From: Acheta domesticus
Taxonomy: Eukaryota > Arthropoda > Insecta > Orthoptera > Gryllidae
Reading direction: 5' to 3'
DNA length: 64,000 nucleotides
Assembly (NCBI GenBank): GCA_031308135.1
Contig: JAHLJT010009355.1
Span: forward strand, 4,401,217-4,465,216
This document shows positions 3,605-59,400 of this stretch, in pieces. Numbering within the stretch: position 1 is the first letter of the stretch; each line of letters begins with the position of its first letter. Below the pieces are notes generated by a model. The model was not told where the DNA came from. It did not search any database and saw only the letters and a program-made list of their open reading frames with translations. The translations under genes were made by a program, and so were the position numbers.

Positions 3605-6600
3605 GTGAGCGCTCCTCATTTCCGCTCCGTTACTGCATTGTAACACTTTGTATGCGATGAGCCTGTACCGGGAGAGGTGGCTCTCTGCAGTGCCTCTGAC
3701 CGGGAGGTCCTAGGTTCCACTCCCGACAGCGGCAGGATTTTTCGACACTAGATTGTCAACGAGGTCGAATTCAGTCGCTGTCTGGAGGAGAATTCTAGCG
3801 GCTGGCTGCTCTGACCGGTAGTTTCCCGTGGTTTCTCCCATAAACACCAGGCGAATGCCGGAGCAGTACCCTAACTGGGCAGGGACCGCGCGCGATCTTT
3901 CCTTCCTCGTCCTTGTCCTATCCTCACTCCTTACACACGCTAACATGCACTACATGCCGGGAGATCGACCGGGAGCTGAGAGCTTGTAACGGCTGGTAAC
4001 ACACTTACGGGACTAATGACCTTAGCATGTGACGCGCCCCGAATCACTAACAAGTAATCAGCAGAAAGTCGTAGGCTTCCGCGGCCGGAGTCATGTGAAT
4101 GATCTTGGCTGTCCGGGTTACGCCGCATTGAAGGTTATGTTGACGACGTTTCGACCATCTTGTCGTGGTCTTCCTCAGGGCTGGTCTGCTGGTGGTCGCA
4201 GAGCAGCCCTGAGGAAGACCACGACAAGACGGTGGAGGCGGCGTCACCCTTCCAGCCAAGAGCAATGAGGAGGTGTGCGTGAATGGTGTGTGCGTTGCAG
4301 CCGGAGCGCTACCAGAGCAAGGCGTCGGAGATCTCTGACCGCTTCGCCGAGCGGGAGCCGGCGCTCGGGGTGCCGGCCAGCGCCTTCGCCGGGGCCGCCA
4401 ACGCCAGCGGCGGGGGCGGGGGCGCAGAGGGCGCGGGCGCGGCGCTCACCACGGTGCAGGTGCGGCGCGTGGCGCTGCCCGACCTGTCGCTGCCGCTGCA
4501 GCTGGGCCGCCGCGAGCAGTTCTCCATGTTCATCCCCCTGCACCGCCGCATGGCGCAGCGCCTCGTGCGCGTCTTCCTCGGTGAGTGGCTCGCGCTCCGC
4601 AAGGGGCGTCGTGGCCACGAGCGCCGCTCGAGAGTGGGGGACTCAAGGGGCCAGTTTCACCAACCAGGATCATATTCGTAGTTGATCCGAGTTTCGTGAT
4701 CCTGATCCGCAGAATCAATGCCGACTTGATCCCTGTGCGTTTCACCAACATTTTGAGTCCGTGAAGTTGATCTGGATCACATGATCCCCGAGCAGACGTG
4801 AAAATGCGCGGTTGGCAACAATTTTGCGATGCATTGTGGGTAATCGCGCGATCAGCTGTAGGAACCGATTTGTTTTGATTTCATTTCTTTTCGTAGTTGT
4901 GTGGTGTTCGGTTGCGTGTGACAGTTTTCTTGTTCGATAATGAATTCAACAGAGGTTGAAAAGAATGCGAAGTGAGCGGTAAATTCTTTTCTGGGGGGAA
5001 AAGAATTTCTTGTAACTATAATGTACAAATACAAAGAAATGTTTAATGATCGTTCCGAGAATTCAAAACAATCGCTTAGTTCGCGAATTATTCGTGATTT
5101 CTATACGTATGTCTACCCACAATAAGTATTCAATTTTCGAAAACAATCTCCATTCTTACGAAGAAAATTAACCTAACACGAATAAAAAATTCAAAGTACC
5201 ACTGCACTAAAAAAGTATTCAATAAAATTATCACACTCTAATTGCATTTCATATATCACAAAAATCAGCTAGAATTAGGAAAAATGTCGCTTTCAATAGA
5301 CTAAAACTAACCAAAGGCTATTTTAGTAATGTCATTTATAATCCATACTAATTTCAAGCAAAAATATATTTAAATTTTAATCCCAATACCGAGTATTCTA
5401 ACCTACAATTGTGATAACTCTACTTTTATTCACACATTTAAAAAAACACATTTTCCGAACAAACAATTACGCACAACCCTACTAGTTAGTGGAATAATTA
5501 TAAATTGAATATAAGTCCAACTAATGGCATTTATTTTAAAAAAAACACGAGAAACTGAAATAGTGGGACGAGAATTTGGTGCGGCCAAGCTGAGAAATAA
5601 CTCCTGATCCGGTCGTGATCCGCCGGTCGGCGACGGATCAATTTGCGAGTCAAATTTGATCCGAGAGAGAGACGTTGATTCGTTTCAAGTGCGTGGTGAA
5701 ACGTACAACGGGATCAACTGGAGTTGACTCGGATCAACTCAGGATCATCTTCTTGACTCCGGTTGGTGAAACCGGCCCAAGGTGGAGGCAGGGAGTAGGC
5801 CCCTGGCGCGTCCACCTCAAGGCAGGAGTGGGTGAAGGAGACCTTTCGGGGAATTCTGGAATCCACATATAGAAGTCCGGCGGGAAACTACCTACCGTCA
5901 GGTTGCCTTGGTGACGATCTGACCCAGGTCGGTAGCCTAAACGTGAAGGCAGTGGGGAGACGGGTTGGGGGCCCCGAGCCGCCCGGACCTCTATTCGGTT
6001 GGTCGCCGGTGGGCTCTTGGCTTTGTCGAGTCAGTGGCTCAATACTCTGGGCATAGAGGAGGGACGCGGTTGTCCCGGCGCATGTGAGTGGCGCATTATT
6101 GTGACTCCGGTACTATCCTGAACAGCAAGTACCTCTGAGCTGGCAGGGCGGCCTTAGACCCAGTCATTATATGGAAGGTTGACGTGAGGGCTAACTGCGT
6201 TCCGGCGGAATCCGGATTTTAGAGTGAGGGTGTCTTTGTACGCCCAAGGAGGGTGCGGATAGACGCTAGCGTCTAGCAGCCCACCCCAAGGCTAATAAAA
6301 TAAATAATAAAGTACAAGTGCTGCGGTGCCGTTCTGGCAAGGTAAGCTCACACATTGCACGCAACTCCCGAGGCGGGCGTCTCCCCCACGCGCCTATCAA
6401 ACACCTTCAAGGCGAATGAAATAGCAGGGGCAATCGCACGCGCACGTTACGTGTAGTCTCCACGCTTGCTGTGGGAGCTCCTTGGCGCGGACCGAATACT
6501 TGTCAGATACTATGTCTTCTTTCCCTGAGACACCCACTTTACCGCAGGCGGTGCTTCGCACAATTCAAAAATGTTCTGAATTCGCCCCGCTTCGGTCTCC

Positions 6601-8573
6601 CTCTTTTCTTTTCGTTGTTACTTCAGTGTAACGAGAAAGAGAGGGAGAGAAGTTGTAAATTAGCACTTAAGCTAAAGCTAGCACGTTGAGAGAGGTAACA
6701 TCACCATATCAAAAATCGTTCTGTTTAGTTTCTCTCCATACTACGATTTTACGGGATAAACTAGTGAAGCAGCACGTACTCTCTCACATTAATTGTGAGT
6801 ATCCGCAGTATTACACTACCTCATCAACCTGCAAAAGTGTTTCTAACCAGCAGAAAACGTTTTCTCCACACAGAAAATCGAACTCAGGTCCATCGAGTTA
6901 ACTCGTCCCAATCGTTAGTCTCTCCCATTGCTTCCAAAACGCAATTTTCGAAAATTCACAGAATTCAACGAAAAATTACACTTGCGCCGTTTTTAAAAGT
7001 TCTTTGCTCTATCCTTAGAAAACAAAGAAAAGTTTTAGGGGCTGTATGGGATATTTTTATGAATTACACTATCTTCATGCAGAAAATAACGCAAATGACA
7101 CTCGCTTTTTCACAAAAAATCATAACAAGCCTTTTTTTATAACAGATATATAAGGCAAAATATCTCTCAATATTGTAATTTTGCAATATAATTTTTGCAA
7201 CTTTATTACAGTGCAGAGTTGGTAGGCATTTGGGTCAATTACAGTTTTTTACCGACCTTTGACACGCCAGAGAGAAAATTTAAAGAAAAATTTGCAGAAT
7301 TTTTTAGATTCTTTTTTCTGTAAATTAAAGTAACTTCACGTAGAAATTACGCGATAAATACTGGTTTAAAATTGTCATTTATTGAAATCAGTAAGCCTTA
7401 ACAATAACACAGCTTATTTGAACCTTCGTCACAAATTTCCATTATCCAATAGTACCAGGCAACAAATTACACCAACATATTTTGCCAAGAAAGCACAACC
7501 ATGCTCTGAAATAATCACATCAGAAAATTTACATTGCGTAGCTCGAAACCGAAACAACAATAGGGCACAGCTCCGTGACATCTCTTCTGTTGACGAACTG
7601 CGAAAGGAAATGCGCACACGATGTGTCCGTTCACGACGACTCGGCGTTGCACACTTTGGCCAGAGGTGCCGACGAGTTCCTCTTATCCGAACTTTCATTT
7701 AAACATAGCTTCACTTGAAGGTCACGAGCCGGAAGGAGAGGGGAACACTGTCATCCAATCGGTAGCCTTGTTAGAACTTTATTGTTTGGTATTGGAGCCG
7801 TCGATTGCATCACAATGTCGTCCTGTACTTCCAGTTCGTGACTCGAAGTGCAGCTATGTTAGCCATCTAAAGCTAGCAGCGCACAAAAGCCAATCTCAAC
7901 CAAACAACCTCCAAATTTTTGGCTAATTTAATGCTCTATTCCAGAATTTTAGGTTCCTTTGGATTTCCCCAAAACGTGGGCGCTGCTAGCTTTAGACTAA
8001 ATTTTGAATTTTGTTGAAAATATGAGTATTCGTGACAAACATAGTAGCCCCTCCCAATGGACCGCGCTCCGTCATCGTAATGGAGCAGGGTGCTTCGTAA
8101 GTTGGAATTTGTGTGTTATTTCTTCCGCCCGCAGAGATGCCGACGGTGGAGGACTTCCTGTCGGCGAGCGCCTTCTGCCGCGAGCGGATGAACCCGTACC
8201 TGTTCGCGTACGCGCTGAGCGTGGCCATGCTGCACCGCAACGACACGCAGGGCGCGCCGCTGCCGCAGTTCGCCGGTCGCTTCCCGGAGAAGTACTTCGA
8301 CGGCGGCGTCTTCCCCGAGGTGCGCCGCGAGGCCAACCTCGTCAGCACCGAGCGCCGGGTACGAGTCACGCCCGGGCGCTTCCGGGCGCGCAGCGCTTCA
8401 CTCCCGTTACAGCAGTGAATGTTTAACCGCTGCTGGATGGTGAGATCGGGAGTCAACCTACACGTAGACCTCGGAATGTTTCCCCTTTCACGTGTCTCCC
8501 TCCAGCGGGGCACCGTCCCTGCGAGGACTAGCTCCCGAATGGTATTCCGGCATGTGTGGTAGTGTAGTGCATG

Positions 8574-8644
<71 letters not shown>

Positions 8645-11600
8645 GGGGTGAGAATAGGACGAAGAAGAGGAAGGAAAGATCACGTGCTGTCAGTGACCCG
8701 ATTGTTAGGGTTCTGCTTCAGCATTCGCCTGATATTGATTGGAGCAACTTCTGAAAACTACCAATCGTAGAAGCGAGCTAGTACAATTCTCCTCCAGAGG
8801 TCGAACACGACCTACTTGTTCAGGAATATGCACTACCGTCGTGGCTTCAGAGCGGGGTCGCATTGAACCACTGTCAGGAGAATAATTCGAGGATCCGGCT
8901 GCTGTGGTCGGTACTTCCGTGGTTTCTCCGATCAACGCCAGGCGAATGCCTAAGCAGCACCCGAACAAACGGGCCACGGACCGCGCGCGATCATTCCTTC
9001 TCCTTCCTTGTCCTCTCCTTACCCCTTAATTACACACACGCGTACATGCAGTACACTGCCACACATGCCGGGAGACCAGTCAGTGGCTTAAAGCTTGTCC
9101 AGACTGGGGCGGTGCCCGCTGGGGAGGTGCCGGGGGAGGAGACGAGGCGCCGTCGGGGCGGGGGCCACGCACGACTCTCGCGGCACCAAAGCCCCACGGC
9201 ATGCATAAACATTTATCGTTTAATGATCCATAAAACAGACATGGTCATTTTGTCACAATTTATTGATTGTTACACATACCTTACCGTTTCGACCCTGTTT
9301 CAGGTCTTTTTCAAAATCTAAAAATGAAAATTCAAATCAGATAATCGTGAATTAACAGTACAATTATATCCCATACCGTATCTAATAAGTGATTAAATTA
9401 AAAAGAATGAACATTTATAAAATGCAAAATTGCGACATACCTAATGTCCAGAATTTGTTGACATCAAAATAAAATGGTAGCATGTAGCTTTTTTTTAAAT
9501 TGAGTTTACATTTGTAGGTACTGTACAGATCATTGAATAAAATAAGCCAAAATACATCAGAGTTTACATATTCAAAAAGAAAGAGTAATTTTATACCATA
9601 GTGACAATTGCAAACGGAAGCTGTAAGGTGCATTTATTTGCAATTTTAGATAAAAATTCCTGATTCGTTTTTGAAATTCGTACGTCAATAAATCCAATGA
9701 CTACTCCAGTACAGTCGTCCTAATGATACAAGTAAGTTACATGTCTGCATGGCACTCTCAATCAATATTTATGCATCACAAATCCCATAACTTGACAATT
9801 CCTGACTTGCGGTGTTTTAACCCTTTGTACTCGGAAGCATTATGCGCGTCTTGCAGCTCGTACGGCATGTCAGAGATGCCACGACAATAATGTAGTAGCT
9901 AGCTTGTATCAGTACACAATGAGACACGTCCTACAACTCATAGGTAGTCGTAAGCAGTCTTAGTTGCCACCTCAAAACCCCTCGTAGATCATACCACAGA
10001 TGCCCACGTATTTTCCTGGTACGTAAAATAAAATTTTCATTGTTGAATCGATCCGGGCCACTATTCTATTTCTAAACAATGTTGACGCAATAATGTGAGA
10101 ACGAGCTGGAACGGGGGAATGTCGAGAATCGGCTTCGAGCTGTGCCGCCTCTTTCCATTGTCATCCTAGACATGCCTTACGAGCTGTAGGACCTCGCAGT
10201 GCTCCGACCGCAGAGTGCATTCTTGGATGGCATGTCGCACACGCCCTGCGAGTGCAAAGGGTTAAAGGGAACCGCTTCAAACTCTGATGGCTCGCGGGGG
10301 CAGGAGCCGCTGGAGATCCCGCTGGACTGGACGGGCACGGACCTGGACCCCGAGCACCGCGTGGCCTACTTCCGCGAGGACATCGGCGTCAACCTGTGCC
10401 ACTGGCACTGGCACCTCGTCTACCCGTTCAGCAGCGACATGGGCGTGGTGGGCAAGGACCGCCGCGGGGAGCTCTTCTACTACTTCCACCAGCAGATCAT
10501 CGCCAGGTATTCTTTCTTTTTTCCTCTCCCACTCGGGGCCGTCCATAGCAGATCACGCCAGGTGAACGCGCACACGCAACGCCCGCTCTTCAGCACTTTA
10601 GAGAGTGTTTCTGCTCCCATTGTACAATGCTGTCATTTGATGGCTGCAAGCCGTTGCGTAATGTTACTCATTACGTTACAGTTTTCATTATGATACATGT
10701 TCATGACCAATCACGGAGAGCCTGTATACCAAGTACTGACACTTAATAATAATTGACATTTGTTCTAGGAAATGTTTCATTCGTGTACATTAAATTACAT
10801 TTAATATTATACCTAGGTCATTCAATAATTAAAGAGATATGGAGAAAAAACAATTAAATTGATATGGAGAAAAAACAATGGGTAAGACAAGTTTGGAAAT
10901 TTTAGGACTTTAAGTTGGCATCACCGGGATGAGCCCTGACCACCAGGAGGATCAGCATGTTGTGTTCATAAACTCGAAATCAAGCTGAACGATGGCGAGT
11001 CCAGTTGAAAATTCTACATTGTTGAACATCGTTCTGCGATTTATTTTGAATTTGCTGAAGGTGAAAATCCAGCCAATATATACTCTATTATGACTCATGT
11101 GTATGGTGAAAGTTTTATAAATAGGTAGAACAGTTGAAACGCGGTCGAAACTTTCTGGCTGCATCAGCACGAAAACTCATGTTGACTGTGTTTGGGGACG
11201 CTGTAGGTGCGTTTTCTGTGATTATCACGAAGAACAGCGTATAATGAACAGCCAATACTGCTTAGATACGCTAATGAACGAGGCGAAGCCAGTTCGTGAG
11301 AGATAAACGCAGTTCTCCTTTGCAGGCGGACTGGTGGCCAGAGCCACGTACGGCAGCATGCGAGGGTAAGTTTAGGGTGTGTCCGCTAGGTGGCCTCGGG
11401 TGAATCTTGCATGTTGACTGCCACGTAACGATTCATTGTAAAAGTTTAAGTTATAAAAGTCGTAGAAAAGAACCGTATGAAACTCGATGTAATGGGAATT
11501 AACACATACTCGATCGTTCGTCGCTCGTATCGTAATATCACACTCGTGTATTACATCCATCGTTTCATAATGTAGTGGCCCGAACGAGCCGTTTTGTGTG

Positions 11601-14600
11601 TTGCAGGTACAACCTGGAGCGCTTCAGCAACCGCCTGGGCCGCGTGCGGCGCTTCCTGGACTTCCGAGAGCCCATGGACGACGGCTACTTCCCCAAGCTC
11701 ACCACGCTGCTCGCCAGCCGCAACTGGCCCCCGCGCCAGGCCGGCGTCAAGCTCAAGGTGCGACCCCCCTCTCTCTCTCTCTCTTGCCTTGCCCATGGAC
11801 GACGGCTACTTCCCCAAGCTCACCACGCTGCTCGCCAGCCGCAACTGGCCCCCGCGCCAGGCCGGCGTCAAGCTCAAGGTGCGACCCCCCTCTCTCTCTC
11901 TCTCTTGCCTTGCCCATGGACGACGGCTACTTCCCCAAGCTCACCACGCTGCTCGCCAGCCGCAACTGGCCCCCGCGCCAGGCCGGCGTCAAGCTCAAGG
12001 TGCGCCCCCCTCCCCCTCTCTCTTGCCTTGCCCATGGACGACGGCTACTTCCCCAAGCTCACCACGCTGCTCGCCAGCCGCAACTGGCCCCCGCGCCAGG
12101 CCGGCGTCAAGCTCAAGGTGCGTCCCCCTCTCCCTCTCTCCCTCTTGCCTTGCCCATGGACGACGGCTACTTCCCCAAGCTCACCACGCTGCTCGCCAGC
12201 CGCAACTGGCCCCCGCGCCAGGCCGGCGTCAAGCTCAAGGTGCGTCCCCCTCTCCCTCTCTCCCTCTTGCCTTGCCCATGGACGACGGCTACTTCCCCAA
12301 GCTCACCACGCTGCTCGCCAGCCGCAACTGGCCCCCGCGCCAGGCCGGCGTCAAGCTCAAGGTGCGTCCCCCTCTCTCCCTCTTGCCTTGCCCATGGACG
12401 ACGGCTACTTCCCCAAGCTCACCACGCTGCTCGCCAGCCGCAACTGGCCCCCGCGCCAGGCCGGCGTCAAGCTCAAGGTGCGTCCCCCTCTCTCCCTCTT
12501 GCCTTGCCCATGGACGACGGCTACTTCCCCAAGCTCACCACGCTGCTCGCCAGCCGCAACTGGCCCCCGCGCCAGGCCGGCGTCAAGCTCAAGGTGCGTC
12601 CCCCTCTCTCCCTCTTGCCTTGCCCATGGACGACGGCTACTTCCCCAAGCTCACCACGCTGCTCGCCAGCCGCAACTGGACACCGCGCCAGGCCGGCGTC
12701 AAGCTCAAGGTGCGTCCCCCTCTCTCCCTCTTGCCTTGCCCATGGACGACGGCTACTTCCCCAAGCTCACCACGCTGCTCGCCAGCCGCAACTGGCCCCC
12801 GCGCCAGGCCGGCGTCAAGCTCAAGGTGCGTCCCCCTCTCTCCCTCTTGCCTTGCCCATGGACGACGGCTACTTCCCCAAGCTCAACACGCTGCTCGCCA
12901 GCCGCAACTGGACACCGCGCCAGGCCGGCGTCAAGCTCAAGGTGCGTCCCCCTCTCTCCCTCTTGCCTTGCCCATGGACGACGGCTACTTCCCCAAGCTC
13001 ACCACGCTGCTCGCCAGCCGCAACTGGACACCGCGCCAGGCCGGCGTCAAGCTCAAGGTGCGTCCCCCTCTCCCTCTCTCCCTCTTGCCTTGCCCATGGA
13101 CGACGGCTACTTCCCCAAGCTCAACACGCTGCTCGCCAGCCGCAACTGGCCCCCGCGCCAGGCCGGCGTCAAGCTCAAGGTGCGTCCCCCTCTCTCCCTC
13201 TTGCCTTGCCCATGGACGACGGCTACTTCCCCAAGCTCAACACGCTGCTCGCCAGCCGCAACTGGCCCCCGCGCCAGGCCGGCGTCAAGCTCAAGGTGCG
13301 TCCCCCTCTCTCCCTCTTGCCTTGCCCATGGACGACGGCTACTTCCCCAAGCTCAACACGCTGCTCGCCAGCCGCAACTGGCCCCCGCGCCAGGCCGGCG
13401 TCAAGCTCAAGGTGCGTCCCCCTCTCTCCCTCTTGCCTTGCCCATGGACGACGGCTACTTCCCCAAGCTCACCACGCTGCTCGCCAGCCGCAACTGGACA
13501 CCGCGCCAGGCCGGCGTCAAGCTCAAGGTGCGTCCCCCTCTCTCCCTCTTGCCTTGCCCATGGACGACGGCTACTTCCCCAAGCTCACCACGCTGCTCGC
13601 CAGCCGCAACTGGCCCCCGCGCCAGGCCGGCGTCAAGCTCAAGGTGCGTCCCTCTCTCTCCCTCTTGCCTTGCCCATGGACGACGGCTACTTCCCCAAGC
13701 TCACCACGCTGCTCGCCAGCCGCAACTGGCCCCCGCGCCAGGCCGGCGTCAAGCTCAAGGTGCGTCCCCCTCTCTCCCTCTTGCCTTGCCCATGGACGAC
13801 GGCTACTTCCCCAAGCTCAACACGCTGCTCGCCAGCCGCAACTGGCCCCCGCGCCAGGCCGGCGTCAAGCTCAAGGTGCGTCCCCCTCTCTCCCTCTTGC
13901 CTTGCCCATGGACGACGGCTACTTCCCCAAGCTCACCACGCTGCTCGCCAGCCGCAACTGGCCCCCGCGCCAGGCCGGCGTCAAGCTCAAGGTGCGTCCC
14001 CCTCCCCCTCTCTATCTGTTGCCTTGCCTTCGTCTACAACAGACCTGCACAGCATTTTGCACTTTCACTGACCTCAGAAGCTGCGCGCGGGCAACTCGGG
14101 TGCAAATGAGAAAATCGATGAAGGGTGGGGATGAGACCCAATCTAGGAGTGGGGTCCGCCAATCAGAATGCGCAATTCGAAAGATTGCGCGTAAATTTAA
14201 AAAGCAATCGGCAAGAACATGACGGTCATATACAGTTCAAGTAATATTGTCTTTTGTATTATATTGCAAATGTTTGTTCTCGATATATGACAGGGCGAAA
14301 TATGAAACTACAACAAATTATACATATTAGATTTCGACACCAAGTATTATAATTGCTTGTAAGGCTTATAATGTAATTCGCTTTGCTACGATGTAACCAC
14401 AAATTTAGTGTTGTGCTAAACACAAAATTGTGATACTGAATTGTTTTTGTTTGATGATGACAGCAACAAACTATTTTTCATTAACTATGTTTAATTGAAT
14501 AAGACGGTTCTCTCAAAGCAAAAACATATTGTTCTTAAAAAAATCATGATTATTTTCTGCTCTAATTTCTGACAAGAATGTAGAGTCGTTTACTGCATCA

Positions 14601-17600
14601 TATAAAAATATAAAGCCCTTTGCATTCTACTTAACCAATACCCATGATTATCTTATGATTGTCCGTAACATATCGTGACAGAAGTTTGCTCGTTGATCTC
14701 TTTTATTCAGTTTCATAATGGGGAAAATGGTCACAAATGTGCTATTAAACATTACCCTTCTTGGAATTGCCACATATTCTATTTTATGTCAATCTTGATG
14801 TGAGACATTGCTCTCATGATTTTGTTCATTTTTCTATGATTTGGAGATTATACCATTCCTGGTGAACAATCAATTATTAAATTGCAATTTTGTGTTAGAA
14901 TTAAATAATATTTTTCTCTTCTATAAGCATAGCTATAAGCATTTTAAAACTATTGCTTTAAAATAATTCCTAAGAGTCCCAATGAGCATGTTATTTTCTT
15001 TAAAAAATTAAAAAATGAAAATACATACAGTGGTGGATACAAAGGTGGATATACAGTAGTGCACAGAACGTAAACAGTGAATTATGACCCTGGTAACTTG
15101 AAATACTAGACATAATCCATTTAAACAAATGGGCATTTAATTTTGAAGCATGGATCATTATTAGACGCCCAGACATTCAATCTACGCGCCACGTCGTGCT
15201 ACGTCAGACTTCTCCCCTCCCCGCAAAGCTTCCTACTCCCCACTACTTGCACTTTCGGCGCTGCCACGGGCAGGCGAGCGGCTCGCAAGTGCAGAATGCC
15301 CGCGGGAGCAGGCGTTGTGCAGGTCTGGTCTACAACATATAGCTGTTTTTCAGCTCCAACCACATCTACTGACACTGCCTCGTACTGTTGGAGAGCCAAC
15401 AAGGACTGTGCCTGCTAATTTCCAAACACCTAAAGAAAAAAAGAATTTAATTGCAATTTGCAGTTTTCATTTGACTAGTGACAACCCGTTCGATTAAATC
15501 GTATTTTGTATTCCAGCATTATAAACGACCTAACCTCACTGAGATCACTAACCTCTCATATTTCAAGATTTCTATTCAACGCAGAAAATCACGTTCACGT
15601 GCTTACACAACCTACACTAAACTGAAAGAAACAAAAATGCTTGAGATTGCAACATTCACTTGTCCCCCGCCACGGTTCGAGAGTGTAATTTTCTTCCGAA
15701 AGATCGCGCGGCAATAAGAAATTACAGATCCCGAATTACTACGTTTTATAATATTTACGTATTTTTAACGCCCTTTTTAATACGAATGTCCCATGTGCAG
15801 CTGAATAGAAACACCATTCTTTAATCCATTGCTTCTTTATACAGATCGGTTTCGTACTTCACCCAACTGATTGAAAAGACCAAACAGCACTTTGAGAAAT
15901 AGTATATAAGAAGATTCTGCCTTGCATATCAATTTGGTACTATGATTGAAACTGTCTCTGTTCAGGACATCCGGCGCTCGGACAAGCAGCTGGAGTTCGA
16001 CATCGCCGATCTGGAGCGCTGGCGCGACCGCATCTACGAGGCCATCCACAACGGCCGCCTGCAGCGGGTGAGTGCCGCCACGCAACGCCACGCCCGTGGT
16101 TTTTGGGTTATTCATAAATGAAGAATTTTCGTAATCACAAGTTTGAAAAACTTAAAGTATGAAATAATAACTGACTTTGTACTACAATCTTCTAGCACGC
16201 TATCCATCGCCCGAGATGATCCTCGTGACATTGTATTTCGTTCGTCATTCATCGTATATTTACGTGGAGAGGCGTTTTTAAAGTTAAATTTTAATAAATT
16301 AATATACACGGCCACTGTCAAATTATATTTTGTTGCGTACGATTTATCTCAATTTTGAGATAACTAAAGAAGCTTTAAAGCGTCGATGTTTAAAATCATC
16401 GATGGCGTTTGGTCGATGTTTTGTTAACATCAAAGTTCTAATTCTGAACATCGATGTTTAGCAACATGTGTGACGTGATACGGGTAGAAATGTATTCTGT
16501 ACAAGATTTCTTAATTCTGGGATCCTTACCCTCAGCCATATACAAGTTTAATTCTGAATACAGAAAGATATGAGCGTGTTTGGCGAGAATTGATAACAAA
16601 ATATTCGCTCCAATGTAATAAAGTCTATTTTTAAAAAAAAATCAGATATAGACTTGAACTCTTGTCCCTCATCTTGTCCTTCGTCAAGGAATATACTTCC
16701 TGCTGCGATAACATGGAGAACAATAATCTGAATTACTATACTTCCCACCGAACTCTAGAAGACGTGCACAGATAATGAATTTACATTTATGTCGAAAAGA
16801 GAAACAAGGTGCCACCTCAGCATTTGCTCAAAGGATCAGGAAAACTGGACACAAATCTGCTCGAAATGGGAGTCATTAACCCAGAAGGTACAATACAATA
16901 CTTGCTATAGGTTATTAGAATTACACAGTCCAAAAGGTAAAAAACACACTAAATATCATTTTTAAAATTAATATTACTTTCTTTTCGATGCTCGGTGTAG
17001 TCTCTAATTGTATAGAAACAGTTATGCAACAGAAAAGATTTTACTTGATGCTCAACAAAAATCTCAATCATTTTCCCATTATAGAATTCCCATTAAAGAA
17101 CCCCCTGCTGTTCATTGAAATAACAATAATATGAATTGTCGTAATTTGAATAATTTCTAATGTAATAATACTTTCTTTTGCAGGAAGATTCAAACGGAAC
17201 ATTTGTGCCCATCATAAATGAACAAGGAATTGATTTACTGGGAAACGTTATTGAAGCTTCAGATCTTTCAATCAACAAAAACTTGTATGGAGATATGCAC
17301 AACTTAGGTCATATTGCCATTGCATATAGTCATGATCCTGATCACAGACACCTGGTATGTTCAAAATTGTCTTAATTTTCTTACATGTATGTTTTGCTTT
17401 CAGATTTGTTGTACAACTCGTTATTTTATTTGTCCATTCCACAATACTTTATAAAATTGATTTGTAATCTCAGGAATGGTCATAATTTGGTAGCAAAAAC
17501 AAGGATATATAATCAAGATACGTCCTAAAGATACCTACTAATAATAAAATGATTTGAAAACATACGCATGTATAAATAAAGATTGACCAAATAACCACTG

Positions 17601-20600
17601 AGTAGAGCGTTGATAAAAATATATTATTAAATTAAAGGTCGCCAGAGTATTGACAACAGTTGTTGGTAGCTGTTAATTTTATTATGTTACATTGAAATTA
17701 ATCTATTGATATTTTGAATTGGAATGTAACAGAATAAAATGTTGATATCCACCAACAAGTGTTGCCAATAATTAACCCCTCCAAACTTCATATTTTCAGA
17801 ACATTTAATTATAATTAAACTATCATTTAATCATAATCATAACAATGAATGTTGTGACAATTATATATCACCATTCCACACAAACAAACATCCAAACTGG
17901 AATGTTGTTTTTCCGTGCACTATGGGCGTGATTTCACTAAGGAATCGCATCAAAGTTAACTATTTCAATTTGCAAAACAAACTCATCTTTTCCATTAGGA
18001 AATGTATTTTATTAATCAATATCTAATGGTGCTACATCAGCACGTACAACTTGCTGGCATGATTTCTAAATTTGCAATTTTCGAAAAATCAATGAGTTCA
18101 ACAAAAATGAGACCCACGCCTTTGTTTTCCTCGTCTCTTGTTTTATAAATGAAAAAAATTAAAGAAAATATTTGCAGCGGTTTTTGAGAAAATGCGTTTT
18201 TATATATTGCATTAATTTCATGGACAAATTATGAAAAAACAATTCGCTTTTTCAAAAAAATTGTGAATTACGTTTCTTGAAGGGCTGGTATTTTATAATA
18301 GATTTTGTTTAAAACAAAAATTTACTAATTTTGGTGTTTTGAAATTTTGCAATTTTCGAAAATACAGAGAATTGGCCAAAAAATGGGACAAGCAGTTATT
18401 TTACCGTCGTTTGGTGCATTATTTAAAATTTTCTAAAAATTACCTTTATTTCATACAAAATATTTTTTTCGAAAAATTGTAAATATTATTTCAAGAACTG
18501 TATTTAAAGAACAGATATCATCAAGGAAAAAATCTAAATCTTCAATACTGTAGTTGTAGGAAGACACCTAAAAATGTCACCTTTTTCAATTTTCGAAAAA
18601 TCGGGACTTCAACGAAAATTAGGTCTATACCATTCTCTTAAGAAGACTTTACGCTATTCGATAACAAGGTTTAGTCAAAATAGTGGGAGTCACTTTTGAG
18701 AAAATTTTGAAAATGTTAGCTTTATATAAGATAAACTAACCCCCAAATCAAAATATCCGTTTCAAACTAAGAGGGCCCCGAGTTCCTTGATCACGGAATA
18801 TCAATTTGGAAGAAAATTACCGGAAAGGTTTTGGCGCTAGCTTTTACCATGTACGGAAGGTCGGACGGAAAGACAGTTGATTTTCCGTTATCAAGGACCC
18901 ACAAAACACGAATTTTGGTTCCACTACTTGTCAGAGTTAGTAATTTACTATATAATGGATGAAGATTTATCCACTTTTCTTTATAAGGGCTCGTCAATAA
19001 GAGTTATTCTGTCGGAAATTCCCCGTTTTTCTGCACACAATTACGGTACTTTCTCCTTTTATAAAGAGCGAGAAAATAAAGTACTATGAAATTTATATGC
19101 AGTTGTATAAACACATGGATTTTATTTTTCAGGAAGATTTCAACATTATGGGAGACGGAGCAACCACCATGCGAGATCCCATGTTCTACCGTTGGCATGG
19201 GTTTGTCGACGACATGTTCCAAGAACACAAGAGAACTCTACCTCCTACACAGTCGAAGAGGTAACTTTCAATTAACAGAATACTTTCTTTCAAATAATAT
19301 TAAACTTAGTATTACACAAGGTTTCATTTATTGCCCTAAACACTCAAGTGTTATCGAGTTAATTTTGGAACATAAATTACATGCAGAGAGTTTTCGTTAT
19401 CGGAGAAACATATGGCCGCTAAGAATATAACATCTTTTCTTCTTTAGCGGCCATTCGCTAGTGCATTTTGAACGGTATCACCATAAAGAGGAAACCATTT
19501 CATTTCCAAAATAACGTTTTTATTGATCCCTAAATTATTTAATACAACGGTTTACTTCTTGATGAGATTATTTGTAACTTTCTACAGTGCAAAAGCGCCG
19601 CATTTGCGTGGCATTCATTCTTCATCTCGCTCTCCACTCGGTGCACTGCTCAGGTCACTCAGGGCATCACTGCAGTGGCTCTGATCGGGGGATCCCAGGG
19701 TTCCAGTCCCGACAGTGGCAATATTTTCGACAGCTTGTCAGCTGGGTCCAATTCAGTCGCTGTCTGGAGGAGAATTCTAGCGGCCGGCTGCTCTGATCGG
19801 TTGTTTTCCCTGGTTTCTCCCATCAACAGCCGGCGAATGCCGGAGCAGTACCCTAACAAACGGGCCACGGACTGAGCGCAATCTTTCCTCTGGGGGACGT
19901 CTGAGGACTAACATTTTTGGTTCACTATATCCATGATGTCAAAATTAAATAGAATGTATCAACGATAATTGATTTATAAATATAAAGATACGGCAATATT
20001 CATTAACAACAGGAACTGAAAATTTCAATAGCTTATTTGTACTTAAAAAAGGAATTATTTTCAATTGTTTGGTTCGTATATTTTTCATTAGTAATTTCTC
20101 TAGGTCCTTTAATGTAGTCTTACACCTTTCAATGCCTCTTGCTCAGTCGGAACACCGTCCCACTTTCCGAAGGCCTTTTTAATCGCCTAATGACAACGAG
20201 ATACAGTTAATTTTTAGGACTTATTTCCTGCGTTCACTACAGCCGAGGTTCAGCTTCACTATACCGAATCTTCTTAAGCTTATTTGTAGTGCAAGTGAAA
20301 CGAGGACCAGTTGACTATAGGTTCACTATAACCGAGGTTCACTATAACCGGAGTCGACTGTATCATGTTGAGATCCACGAGAGGAACATTCAGAGCACTT
20401 TGGTTCCAAGCTCATAAGAAACTCTTCTGGCTCTACCTCTCATACACCTGTTTTGAGATGCGCTAGTCAAAGCAAAACTCATTTCAACCTCAGCAACAGC
20501 AGTTCCTACAAGAACGACTTCGTCGTTGGGGATTCGTAGTCACCATAAGAAAATCATCCTATCTCAGAAACTATTCGTGCTACAGAAAATCTAAGCACAA

Positions 20601-30902: not shown

Positions 30903-31902
30903 NNNNNNNNNNNNNNNNNNNNNNNNNNNNNNNNNNNNNNNNNNNNNNNNNNNNNNNNNNNNNNNNNNNNNNNNNNNNNNNNNNNNNNNNNNNNNNNNNN
31001 NNNNNNNNNNNNNNNNNNNNNNNNNNNNNNNNNNNNNNNNNNNNNNNNNNNNNNNNNNNNNNNNNNNNNNNNNNNNNNNNNNNNNNNNNNNNNNNNNNNN
31101 NNNNNNNNNNNNNNNNNNNNNNNNNNNNNNNNNNNNNNNNNNNNNNNNNNNNNNNNNNNNNNNNNNNNNNNNNNNNNNNNNNNNNNNNNNNNNNNNNNNN
31201 NNNNNNNNNNNNNNNNNNNNNNNNNNNNNNNNNNNNNNNNNNNNNNNNNNNNNNNNNNNNNNNNNNNNNNNNNNNNNNNNNNNNNNNNNNNNNNNNNNNN
31301 NNNNNNNNNNNNNNNNNNNNNNNNNNNNNNNNNNNNNNNNNNNNNNNNNNNNNNNNNNNNNNNNNNNNNNNNNNNNNNNNNNNNNNNNNNNNNNNNNNNN
31401 NNNNNNNNNNNNNNNNNNNNNNNNNNNNNNNNNNNNNNNNNNNNNNNNNNNNNNNNNNNNNNNNNNNNNNNNNNNNNNNNNNNNNNNNNNNNNNNNNNNN
31501 NNNNNNNNNNNNNNNNNNNNNNNNNNNNNNNNNNNNNNNNNNNNNNNNNNNNNNNNNNNNNNNNNNNNNNNNNNNNNNNNNNNNNNNNNNNNNNNNNNNN
31601 NNNNNNNNNNNNNNNNNNNNNNNNNNNNNNNNNNNNNNNNNNNNNNNNNNNNNNNNNNNNNNNNNNNNNNNNNNNNNNNNNNNNNNNNNNNNNNNNNNNN
31701 NNNNNNNNNNNNNNNNNNNNNNNNNNNNNNNNNNNNNNNNNNNNNNNNNNNNNNNNNNNNNNNNNNNNNNNNNNNNNNNNNNNNNNNNNNNNNNNNNNNN
31801 NNNNNNNNNNNNNNNNNNNNNNNNNNNNNNNNNNNNNNNNNNNNNNNNNNNNNNNNNNNNNNNNNNNNNNNNNNNNNNNNNNNNNNNNNNNNNNNNNNNN
31901 NN
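30903..31902. other. Assembly gap (1000 N)
   Basis: There are exactly 1000 Ns, the usual placeholder for a scaffold join of unknown size. The true distance, and even whether PPO-A and PPO-B are neighbours, depends on the scaffolding evidence. Confidence 0.99.
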
Positions 31903-50467: not shown

Positions 50468-53400
50468 GTGAGCGCTCCTGATTTCCGCTCCGTTACGGCA
50501 TTGTAAGACTTTGTATGCGATGAGCCTGTACCGGGAGAGGTGGCTCTCTGCAGTCCCTCTGACCGGGAGGTCCTAGGTTCCACTCCCGACAGCGGCAGGA
50601 TTTTCGACACTAGCTTGTCAGCGAGGTCGAATTCAGTCGCTGTCTGGAGGAGAATTCTAGCGGCTGGCTGCTCTGATCGGTAGTTTTCCGTGGTTTCTCC
50701 GATCAACGCCTGGCGAATGCCGGACATTACCCTAACAAACGGGCCATGGAACGCGCGCGATCTTTCCTTCGTCTTCTTTGTCCTATCCTCACCCCTTACA
50801 CACACACTAACATGCACTACACTACTACATATGCCGGAAGATCTGTCGGGATCTTGGAGATTGACCCGGCTGGAGCGGTGCCCCGCTGGTGGGAGATATC
50901 TGGTGGGGGAAAACGCTGCTATCCGACGGTAGGTGTGAATCGGATCTCGCCACCTAGCGGGGGAAGATCACCGCCACTTCGCTAGAAAACATTCAACACA
51001 CTTACAGGACTAATGACCTGAGCATGTGACGCGCCCCGAATCACTAACAAGTAATCAGGAGAAAGTCGTAGGTTTCCGCGGTCGGAGTCATGTGAATGAT
51101 TTTGGCTGTCCGGGTGACGCCGCGTTGAAGGCTATGTTGGCGACGTTTCGACCATCTTGTCGTGGTCTTCCTTAGGGCTGGTCTGCTGGTGGTCGCAGAG
51201 CAGCCCTGAGGAAGACCAGGACAAACGGTCGAAACGTCGGCAACACAGCTTTCGACGCTGGTCTGCTGGTGGTCGCAGAGCAGGCCTGAGGAAGACCACG
51301 ACAAGACGGTGGAGGCGGCGTCACCCTTCCAGCCAAGAGCAATGAGGAGGTGTGCGTGAATGGTGTGTGCGTTGCAGCCGGAGCGCTACCAGAGCAAGGC
51401 GTCGGAGATCTCTGACCGCTTCGCCGAGCGGGAGCCGGCGCTCGGGGTGCCGGCCAGCGCCTTCGCCGGGGCCGCCAACGCCAGCGCAGAGGGCGCGGGC
51501 GCGGCGCTCACCACGGTGCAGGTGCGGCGCGTGGCGCTGCCCGACCTGTCGCTGCCGCTGCAGCTGGGCCGCCGCGAGCAGTTCTCCATGTTCATCCCCC
51601 TGCACCGCCGCATGGCGCAGCGCCTCGTGCGCGTCTTCCTCGGTGAGTGGCTCGCGCTCCGCAAGCGGCGTCGTGGCCACGAGCGCCGCTCGAGAGTGGG
51701 GGACTCAAGGTGGAGGCAGGGGGTAGGCCCCTGGCGCGTCCACCTCAAGGCAGGAGTGGCTGAAGGAGACCTTTCGGGGAACTCTGGAATCCGCATTTAG
51801 AAGTCCGGCGGGAAACTACCTACCGTCAGGTTGCCTTGGTGACGATCTGACCCAGGTCGGTAGCCTAAACGTGTAGGCAGTGGGGAGACGGGATGGGGGC
51901 CCCGAGCCGCCCGGACCTCTATTCGGTTGGTCTCTTGGCTTTGTCGAGTCAGTGGCTGAATACTCTGGGCATAGAGGAGGGACGCGGTGTCCCGGCGCAT
52001 GTGAGTGGCGCATTATTTTGACTGCGGTACTATCCCGGGTAGCTAGTAGCTCTGAGCTGGCAGGGCGGCCTTAGACCCAGTCATTATATGGGAAGGTTGA
52101 CGTGAGGGCTAACTGCGTTCCGGCGGAATCCGGATGTTAGAGTGAGGGTGTCCTTATACACCCAAGGAGGGTGCGGATAGACGCTAGCCCACCCCAAGGC
52201 TAATAAAATAAATAATAAAGTACAAGTGCTGCGGTGCCGTTCTGGCAAGGTAAGCTTACACATTGCACGCAACTCCCGAGGCGGGCGTCTCCCCCACGCG
52301 CCTATCAAACACCTTCAAGGCGAATAAAAAAGAAGGGGCAATCGCACGCGCACGTCTCCACGCTTGCTGTGGGAGCTCCTTGGCGCGGACCGAATACTTG
52401 TCGGATACCATGTCTTCTTCCCTGAGACACCCACTTTACCGCAGGCGGTGATTCGCACGAATCACTCAAACATTTTCCGAATTGGCCCGCTCCGGTCTCA
52501 CCTTTTATTTTCATTGTTATTTCAGTGTAACGAGAAAGAGAAGAAGAGAAATGGTAAATTAGCACTTAAGCTAAAGCTAGCACCTTGAGAGGGGTAACCA
52601 CCGTATCAAAAATCGTTCTGTTTAGTTTCTCGCCATAATACGATTTTACGGGATAAACTAGTGAAGCAGCTGTAGCGTCATGCACGCTCAAACGCGCAGA
52701 CGGTAGAATTTCACCGGAAGCTGAACAAAGGGCTGGACATCTGGCGTGGTGACGCGCAATGACGCACCGGTTTTTCCGAGCGAGCGAAGCGTCGTCTCAG
52801 GTGCTGGGACGGGCAACGGTGGCGGCGGGCGACGCCATGGCGCCTTTAAAAGCCGGGTGACGAACGCGCCCCATTCTTCTTTTCTGTAGTTCGAGCTGTG
52901 TGAGTAGGAGGCTGTGCGTCTAGCACGCGAAGGGGAAGCCGGCATTAGTTTGTCGTCAGTCATGAGACATGTAGGTTTGTCTCGGCAGAGCGGTGCATCA
53001 CACTGAGGGGAAACGTTTGTTGTTTGGGCGGTGTGGTAGCCGCACTGTAATATCACTTCTTGTGGTGGGCTGTATTTATTTACTTAGTAGAAGGCAGTGT
53101 TATGGTGTTTTACGACTTCGGTCTGTGTTTTTTCATTAATAAACCAACTGTTTATTCTACCCACCCTCGTCTGTGTTTTAATATCCGTATGACGCCACAC
53201 AGCACGTACTCTCTCACATTAATTGTGAGTATCCGCAGTATTACACTAACTCATCAACCTGCAAAAGTGTTTCTAACCAGCAGAAAACGTTTTCTCCACA
53301 CAGAAAATCAAACTCAGGTCCATCGAGTTAACTCGTCCCAATCGTTAGTCTCTCCCATTGCTTCCAAAACGCAATTTTCGAAAATTCACAGAATTCAACG

Positions 53401-56400: not shown

Positions 56401-59400
56401 TATGTAAAATAAAATTTTCATTGTTGAATCGATCCGGGCCACTATTGTATTTCTAAACAATGTTGACGCAATAATGTGAGAACGAGCTGGAACGGGGGAA
56501 TGTCGAGAATCGGCTTCGAGCTGTGCAGCCTTTCTCCATTGTCATCCTAGACATGCCTTACGAGCTGTAGGACCTCGCAGTGCTCCGAGCGCAGAGCATG
56601 CATTCTCGGGTGACAGGTCGCACACGCCCTGCGAGAGCAAAGGGTTAAAGCGAACCGCTTCAAACTCTGACGGCAGGAGCCGCTGGAGATCCCGCTGGAC
56701 TGGACGGGCACGGACCTGGACCCCGAGCACCGCGTGGCCTACTTCCGCGAGGACATCGGCGTCAACCTGTGCCACTGGCACTGGCACCTCGTCTACCCGT
56801 TCAGCAGCGACATGGGCGTGGTGGGCAAGGACCGCCGCGGGGAGCTCTTCTACTACTTCCACCAGCAGATCATCGCCAGGTACTCTTTCTTCCTTCCTCT
56901 CTCCACTTTGGGGCCGACCGTAGCAGATCACGCCAGGTGAACGCGCACACGCAACGCCCGCTCTTCAGCACTTTAGAGAGTGTTTCTGCTCCCATTGTAT
57001 AATGCTGTCATTTGATGGCTGCAAGCCGTTGCGTAATGTTACTCATTACGTTACAGTTTTCATTATGATACATGTTCATGACCAATCACGGAGAGCCTGT
57101 ATACCAAGTACTGACACTTAATAATAATTGACATTTGTTCTAGCAAATGTTTCATTCGTGTACATTAAAATTACATTTAATATTATACGTAGGTCATTCA
57201 ATAATTAAAGAGACAAATTGATATGGAGAAAAAACAATGGGTAAGACAAGTTTGGTAATTTCAGGACTTTAAGTTGGCATCACCGGGATGAGCCCTGACC
57301 ACCAGGAGGATCAGCATTGTTGTGTTCATAAACTCGAAATTAAGCTGAACGATGGCGAGTCCAGTTGAAAATTCTACATTGTTGAACATCGTTCTGCGAT
57401 TTATTTTGAATTTGCTGAAGGTGAAAATCCAGCCAATGTATACTCTATTATGACTTAAGTGTACGGTGAAAGTTTTATAAGTAGGTAGAACAGTTGAAAC
57501 GCGGTCGAAACTTTCTGGTTGCATCAGCACGAAAACTCATGTTGGCTGTGTTTGGGGACGCTGCAGGTGCATTTTCTGTGATTATCACGAAGAACAGCGT
57601 ATAATGAACAGCCAATACTGCTTAGATACGCTAATGAACGAGGTGAAGCCAGTCGTGAGAGATAAACGCAGTTCTCCTTTGCAGGCGGACTGGTGGCCAG
57701 AGCCACGTACGGCAGCATGCGAAGGTAAGGTTAGGGTGTGTCCGCTAGGTGGCCTCGGGTGAATCTTGCATGTTGACTGCCACGTAACGATTCATTGTAA
57801 AAGTTTAAGTTATAAAAGTCGTAGAAAAAGAACCGTATGAAACTCGATGTAATGGGAATTAACACATACTCGATCGTTCGTCGCTCGTATCGTAACATCA
57901 CACTCGTGTATTACATCCATCGTTTCATAATGTAGCATTGTAGTGGCCCGAACGAGCCGTTTTGTGTGTTGCAGGTACAACCTGGAGCGCTTCAGCAACC
58001 GCCTGGGCCGCGTGCGGCGCTTCCTGGACTTCCGGGAGCCCATGGACGACGGCTACTTCCCCAAGCTCACCACGCTGCTCGCCAGCCGCAACTGGCCCCC
58101 GCGCCAGGCCGGCGTCAAGCTCAAGGTGCGCCCCCCTCCCCCTCTCTGTCTTGCCTTGCCTTCATCTACAACATACAGCTGTTTTTCAACTCCAACCACA
58201 TCTACCGACACTGCCTCGTACTAGCAGCTTGGAGAGACAACAAGGACTGTGCCTGCTAATTTCGAAACACCTAATGAAAAAAAGAATTTAATTGCAATTT
58301 GCAGTTTTCATATGACTAGTGACAACCCGTGCGATTAAATCGCACGGTTAGTCAAATAACAAAACTGTTTTCTGCTTAAATTCTTTTTCTTTTGTATTCC
58401 AGCATTATAAACGACCTAACCTTACGAACATCACTAACCTCTCATATTTCAAGATCTCTATTCAATGCAGAACACCACGTTCACGTGCTTACACAACCTC
58501 CACTAAACTGAAACAAACAAAAATGTTTGAGATTGCAACATTCACTTGTCCCCCCGCCAATCGAACAGTGTAATTTTCTTCCGAAAGATCGCGCGGCAAT
58601 CAGAAATTACAGAACCCGAATTACTACGTTTTATAATATTTACGTATTTTTAACGCACTTTTTCAATACGAATGTCCCATGTGCAGCTGAATATAAACTC
58701 AATTTTTTAAGCCATTGCTTCTTTATACAGATCGGTTTTCGTACTTCGCCCAATTGATTGAAAAGACCAAACAGCACTTGAGAAATAATATATATGATTC
58801 TCCCTTGCATATTAATTTGGTACTATGATTTGCTGTTTGAAACTCTCTCTGTTCAGGACATCCGGCGCTCGGACAAGCAGCTGGAGTTCGACATTGCCGA
58901 CCTGGAGCGCTGGCGCGACCGCATCTACGAGGCCATCCACAACGGCCGCCTGCAGCGGGTGAGCGCCGCCACGCAACGCCATGCCCGTGGTTTTTGGTTT
59001 ATTCATAAATGAAGAATTTTCATAATCACAAGTTTGAAAAACTTAAAGTATGAAATAATAACTGACTTTGTACTACAATCTTCTAGCACGCTATCCATCG
59101 CCCGAGATGATCCTCATGATCTTGTATTTCGTTCGTCATTCATCGTATATTTACGTGGAGAGGCGTTTTTAAAGTTCATTTTGAGTTAAATTTTAATAAA
59201 TTAATATACACGGCCACTGTCAAATTAAATTTTGTAGCGCACAAATTCAATTTTGAGATAACTAAAGTAGCTTTAATGCGTCGATGTTTAAAATCATCGA
59301 TGGCGTTTGGTCGATGTTTTGTGAACATCAAAGTTCTAATTCTGAACATCGATGTTTAGCAACATGTGTCACGTGCTACGGGTAGAAATGTATTCTGTAC

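Follow-up and report, generated by a model that had tools for sequence, protein, structure and literature searches.

A tandem array that repeats the end of an exon together with its splice donor, inside a gene predicted to encode a prophenoloxidase (PPO), raises three questions in the cricket Acheta domesticus: is the array genuine, how did it come about, and which of its donors is used? We call the 64,000-nt stretch of DNA that was analyzed the window. It holds the array in its first half and, 46 kb away, a form of the same gene with the repeated unit present once (Table 1). Arrays of this kind, in which tandem units lie across an exon/intron border, are already known from amphioxus as "mirage" minisatellites. 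As a whole, we consider it likely that such a minisatellite, polymorphic in length between alleles, is spliced from its first donor and turns over by exchange between units.

Table 1. Positions of the features discussed, numbered from the first base of the window.
Feature	Position	Strand	Remarks
Array-bearing PPO copy: exon 5 (151 nt up to donor 1)	11607..11757	+	
Tandem array of 20 units (exon end, donor, intron start)	11671..14011	+	TRF, direct count
Donor 1 (GTGCGA)	11758..11763	+	U1 duplex -5.3 vs -6.3 for donors 4-20
Unit 20 (last) and native continuation of intron 5	13906..14028	+	
hAT-like insertion, absent from the single-copy form	14040..15327	.	8-bp target duplication GTCTACAA at 14032-14039 and 15328-15335
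Exon 6, acceptor side for all 20 donors	15966..16067	+	
Scaffold gap of 1000 N between two overlapping contigs	30903..31902	.	
Single-copy form (probable other allele): exon 5 with one unit, donor GTGCGC	57975..58125	+	
Exon 6 of the single-copy form	58857..58958	+	

Structure of the Array in the PPO Gene

The array-bearing gene is a prophenoloxidase gene (arthropod hemocyanin superfamily), judging from the similarity of its predicted protein, along its length, to solved PPO structures. The rough conceptual protein of exons 1-7 is matched by Manduca phenoloxidase 3hhs_B (1.8e-117), and the closest proteins include cricket phenoloxidases (Gryllus). TRF describes the array (array A) with a period of 116, 19.9 copies and 97% matches. 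By direct count there are 20 unit starts from 11672 to 13906, spaced in order by 121, 121, 118, 122, 122, six times 116, 122 and seven times 116 bases. Every unit carries the final ~87 bases of exon 5. In units 1-19 an 86-nt exonic core is followed by 30-36 intronic bases in total, the donor GTGCG included, while unit 20 runs on into the native intron 5. The sequence-only reading had described a minisatellite that amplifies the end of exon 5 and the adjoining donor 20-fold, with a unit of 87 exonic bases, the 5' splice site and about 30 intronic bases; both points agree with our counts, and we share its view that such an amplification is unusual.

All 20 units span the exon/intron border of the coding gene and repeat its GT donor, the exonic part ending CTCAAG/GTGCG in each. 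The exonic core is identical in 12 units, the others carrying a single change (four units), a double change (three) or both (one). The amplified segment, of about 121 bp, starts at the Glu-Pro codons of the exon and reaches some 35 bases into intron 5. At the unit junction (TTGCCTTGCC/CATGG) there is a 3-base overlap, GCC, common to both flanks, and the limits lie between -88 and -85 on the exonic side and between +32 and +35 on the intronic side of the donor. Chance is excluded as a source of the array, which is real sequence in this assembly. In 197,603 bases, mostly from the PPO region and thus no basis for a genome-wide rate, two arrays have a period of at least 30 and at least five copies, and both lie at PPO exon-5 borders.

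The hAT-like insertion begins 28 bp beyond the TRF end of the array and 11 bp beyond the end of its last unit. It has terminal inverted repeats with the ends CAGACCTGCACA, is framed by the target duplication given in Table 1 and contains no open frame longer than 77 aa. Two side observations concern both copies of the gene. Intron 4 contains a conserved 40-nt stretch (11326-11365 and 57685-57724), bounded by TTTGCAG and GTAAG, which could be a small unrecognized or alternative exon. Beyond the last PPO-like exon lie imperfect short tandem repeats (28839-28948; L014:693-838).

A Second Array in a Paralogous PPO Gene

Searching the cricket's own genome with unit A returned at least 40 places. 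Twenty are the units of array A, one is the single copy, 18 have an identity of 79-83% (4519034-4532931) and one lies at 106.53 Mb. The 18 places fall in another PPO gene, gene C, ~106 kb downstream. A search with the unit of gene C returned one further locus, the single-copy PPO locus E at 68.73 Mb; the counts of both searches are lower bounds. There are thus at least four PPO exon-5 loci (A/B, C/C', E, and F, with B the single-copy form in the window and C' a second contig carrying gene C), two of which have arrays, while E and F have the exon once.

Array C (L009:5032-8171) occupies the homologous exon-5/intron-5 border, where TRF gives 24.5 copies of 128 bp and we count 25 unit starts. Its limits, -90 to +36 relative to the donor, fall within a few bases of those of array A. 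The border is spanned in 24 of the 25 units, the exception being the last one, whose exonic part is incomplete, and there are 24 GTGAG donors, with TCG/GT or TCT/GT at the splice site. Over the exonic 90 nt, arrays A and C agree at 67 positions; their intronic halves look unrelated. Gene C pairs with protein P0001 of Gryllus longicercus. An element with inverted ends is also found directly behind array C (L009 about 8205-8967), and a short stretch that follows it (L009:8984-9017) resembles the intronic part of a C unit. We considered a transposon as the cause of the arrays; elements lie behind both, but the one behind array C has no clean 8-bp duplication, and we attach no causal weight to them.

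The Single-Copy Form: Allele or Paralog

The two halves of the window (1-30902 and 31903-64000) are largely the same sequence twice, around the 1000-N gap, and duplicate genes seen between the halves are suspect for this reason. Contigs A and B are collinear, with several length differences, over ~45 kb (4386870/4433119 to 4432118/4477990 of C6096): the first base of contig B (4433119) pairs with 4386870, and the last base of contig A (4432118) pairs with 4477990. In an alignment of 14 pieces, 849 of 39,026 columns differ, or 787 of 38,563 (~2%) without one off-line repeat piece. In the coding parts (11 of 12 exons, exon 12 being left out) there are nine substitutions in 1,913 nt, two of them amino-acid-changing. 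Exon 2 also differs by an in-frame, glycine-rich 15-nt indel (4301-4579 vs. 51378-51641). The exonic core of the single-copy form (58036-58125) is the same as that of the 12 identical units of array A. Compared with B, contig A lacks one base in a homopolymer run of exon 8 (19133-19260) and another in one of exon 11 (27570-27798). We take these two differences to be consensus errors because C and C' have different frame breaks; the losses may instead mark the decay of the array-bearing copy.

The second gap of the region, between C and C', repeats the end-to-end pattern. The alignment of gene C with C' extends right to the edge of the gap, ending on the base next to it, with 222 mismatches in 8,647 ungapped columns (the sum of four alignment rows), and C' starts in the middle of an array, without exons 1-4. 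Because the contig ends coincide with the limits of homology at both gaps, we favor the reading that the single-copy form represents the other allele, two haplotype contigs having probably been joined end to end by the scaffolding. One allele would then probably carry 20 units and the hAT-like insertion and the other one unit and no insertion, and, if A and B are indeed alleles, the difference between 20 and 1 units would be an allelic length polymorphism. The sequence-only reading had called this form a paralog containing the unit once. The single unit stands, whereas paralog status is doubtful, the contig overlap favoring the allele reading.

A true paralog would imply a tandem duplication of ~45 kb with its junction inside the scaffold gap and an array gained by only one duplicate. 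The coincidence of the contig ends with the bounds of the homologous stretch would fit this history as well, and a coding divergence (9/1,913) far below the non-coding one (~2%) is what two maintained genes would show, although it is equally expected of alleles. Against it stand the end-to-end overlap at both gaps of the region, the start of C' in mid-array with exons 1-4 missing, and the expectation that copies 2% apart would normally be assembled through their junction, so that we regard a duplication as improbable. Shortcomings of the assembly, its frame-breaking indels and unmerged contigs, could be held against the array itself, as if it had been inflated from a single unit. This is very improbable: the units hold ordered variants and distinct end units, unique sequence flanks array A on either side, and a second, different array exists and is present on two contigs (C and C'). 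Unmerged haplotypes may also make PPO genes look more numerous in this assembly than they are.

Turnover of the Units

The mean number of edits between units is 4.58 in array A, with 6.1 for the first unit and 8.7 for the last, and 7.19 in array C, with 9.3 for the first and 9.3 for the last of 24 units. Adjacent units are most alike in array A, array C has an echo in the form of a dip at lag 9, and in both the end units are the most divergent. This turnover looks like ordinary minisatellite evolution, concerted and with divergent end units. Unequal exchange or slippage would duplicate adjacent units and homogenize the interior of the array, and the end units would lag behind.

We also considered a DNA hairpin hotspot, but the border folds no better than shuffled sequences in A/B, C or F on both strands (six folds, z -1.19 to 1.24). 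In a 13-row tree of exons 5-8, C and G. longicercus (100/100) group with the array-free locus E (86/87), and A groups with G. bimaculatus (100/100). The tree omits a Timema row that came from another part of the protein than intended, and the F row, which is short and fills 28% of the columns. A search for translated arrays in other species returned only a G. bimaculatus phenoloxidase, with the exon once.

Donors and Reading Frames

The duplex energy with U1, computed for a U1 end without its modified bases, is -5.3 for units 1-3 and -6.3 for units 4-20 of array A. In array C it is -4.4 for unit 1 and -8.3 or -8.8 for the other 23. Donor strength alone would, on this calculation, favor the later donors. 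Since most of the later donors would form a more stable duplex with U1 than donor 1 does, effects on splicing are possible. Changes in isoforms, intron retention or expression, as raised by the sequence-only reading, are conceivable, with the indirect evidence on the side of donor 1. Array A has no stops in any of the three forward frames, and seven of its 20 donors (1, 4, 7, 10, 13, 16, and 19) are in frame. On paper, longer proteins could thus be made from the in-frame donors.

In array C, unit 1 encodes EPIEGGY...GARPS, the same as P0001, in which GARPS runs directly into exon 6 (DINRE) at a plain junction. Later full-length units have EPS instead (17 of 18 compared), and the reading frame of some is broken by indels, a part of which may be errors of the assembly. 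Because an in-frame TAG lies in the intronic part of the C units, later donors cannot give the normal protein. Donor 1 should therefore be the productive donor in C and, by analogy, in A. Recurrent codon changes in array C comprise four nonsynonymous and eight synonymous ones, with the nonsynonymous changes below expectation under three mutation models (P 0.005, 0.011, and 0.021). The copies may thus not be wholly unconstrained, and homogenization with unit 1 could give the same codon pattern. On the side of exon 6, the Gryllus bimaculatus phenoloxidase 1 model (P0003) joins exon 5 directly to exon 7, without the 34 residues of exon 6, which reflects either a model error or exon skipping.

The exon measures 151 nt at donor 1 and would exceed 2.3 kb if cut at donor 20, a length that exon definition would disfavor. 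We propose that exon definition in the pre-mRNA pairs the acceptor of exon 5 with the donor closest to it. The remaining units would be removed as part of intron 5, giving a normal protein, and the later donors would act as decoys whose effect is probably small.

Origin and Function of the Arrays

That arrays A and C have near-identical limits points to one cause behind both, be it descent from one array or a hotspot. Under common ancestry, a single array older than the split of A and C would have been lost by E, F and the single-copy form. The position of C next to the array-free E and apart from A (86/87) demands several losses, and the intronic halves of the two arrays are unrelated. Two gains are simpler because one gain needs losses at all three of these places, and we lean towards two arrays that arose separately at a break-prone border, leaving a single origin unlikely though far from negligible.

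The arrays might instead be splicing devices, in which later donors compete with a weak donor 1, lengthen exon 5 and either cut productive mRNA or make longer isoforms, so that the number of units tunes PPO output. Donor 1 is indeed among the weakest in both arrays, the stop-free frames and the seven in-frame donors of A would allow longer products, and the exonic copies of C lean synonymous. The expansion of exon 5 from 151 nt to more than 2.3 kb at donor 20 nevertheless argues against such a device, as do the stop met by any later donor of C and the plain exon 5/6 junction of the G. longicercus protein. Amphioxus mirages, too, are reported to splice regularly (PMC3087553). We give a splicing device little credence. 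About as doubtful is the most far-reaching account, in which the border is a recurrent amplification site. It would combine independent events in two paralogs, with cuts that coincide at both ends to within a few bases, long arrays of decoy donors that exceed the authentic first one in strength, and an allelic unit number that tunes functional PPO mRNA. Such borders would come and go repeatedly and might at times be taken up as new exons, an in-frame route on paper in A being a 20-residue mini-exon from CCCCAAG/CTC to CTCAAG/GT.

Comparison With Known Systems

The mirages of amphioxus are described as minisatellite-like tandem duplications of exon/intron borders, reported for Adh3, the globins BflGb6 and BflGb9, troponin C and PGBD5 (PMC3087553, PMC3902484). 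Many of their units carry AG/GT signals, and BflGb6 haplotypes have six and three units (PMC3087553). The same reports describe concerted evolution that spares the end units, RT-PCR results that suggest regular splicing, and a proposed role in intron gain, their authors suggesting that mirages may be general in cephalochordates (PMC3087553, PMC3902484). Somatic length instability has been reported for the Adh3 mirage. The cricket arrays likewise have units that span the exon/intron border and carry splice signals, and evolve in concert with divergent end units. If A and B are alleles, unit number would differ between haplotypes in the cricket too (20 vs. 1, as compared to 6 vs. 3 in BflGb6). 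They differ from the amphioxus mirages in their insect host, in their size (20 and 25 units vs. 3-6 in BflGb6), in the probable 20-vs-1 allelic pair, in the presence of arrays with nearly coincident limits at one border of two paralogs, and in later donors that are mostly stronger than the first.

A related model (Rogers, cited in PMC3087553) derives new introns from the tandem duplication of AGGT segments, and a potato RdRp gene is reported as a case of it (PMC4974935). Array A repeats such an AAG/GT segment 20 times (CAAG/GTGCG in 20 of 20 units) and so provides the substrate that the model requires, whereas array C has TCG/GT or TCT/GT in place of AGGT. Under the model, a new intron would further have to be spliced out between copies. 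Ordinary VNTR minisatellites share the unit length, the local duplication and a probable allelic length difference with the cricket arrays, but the unit of the latter takes in part of a coding exon and a genuine splice donor.

In the open-licence literature, judged mostly by titles and the opening lines of abstracts, no such array is recognized in PPO genes or in insects. The aspects that appear new are two unusual traits, the probable 20-vs-1 allelic pair and the recurrence at one border in two paralogs. Minisatellites at splice borders have been proposed as raw material for new introns and are, in the part of that literature seen here, described from amphioxus only. With 20 near-identical donors in a row, the large cricket case is a natural experiment on how the spliceosome selects one of them, and on whether some exon borders are prone to repeated breakage.
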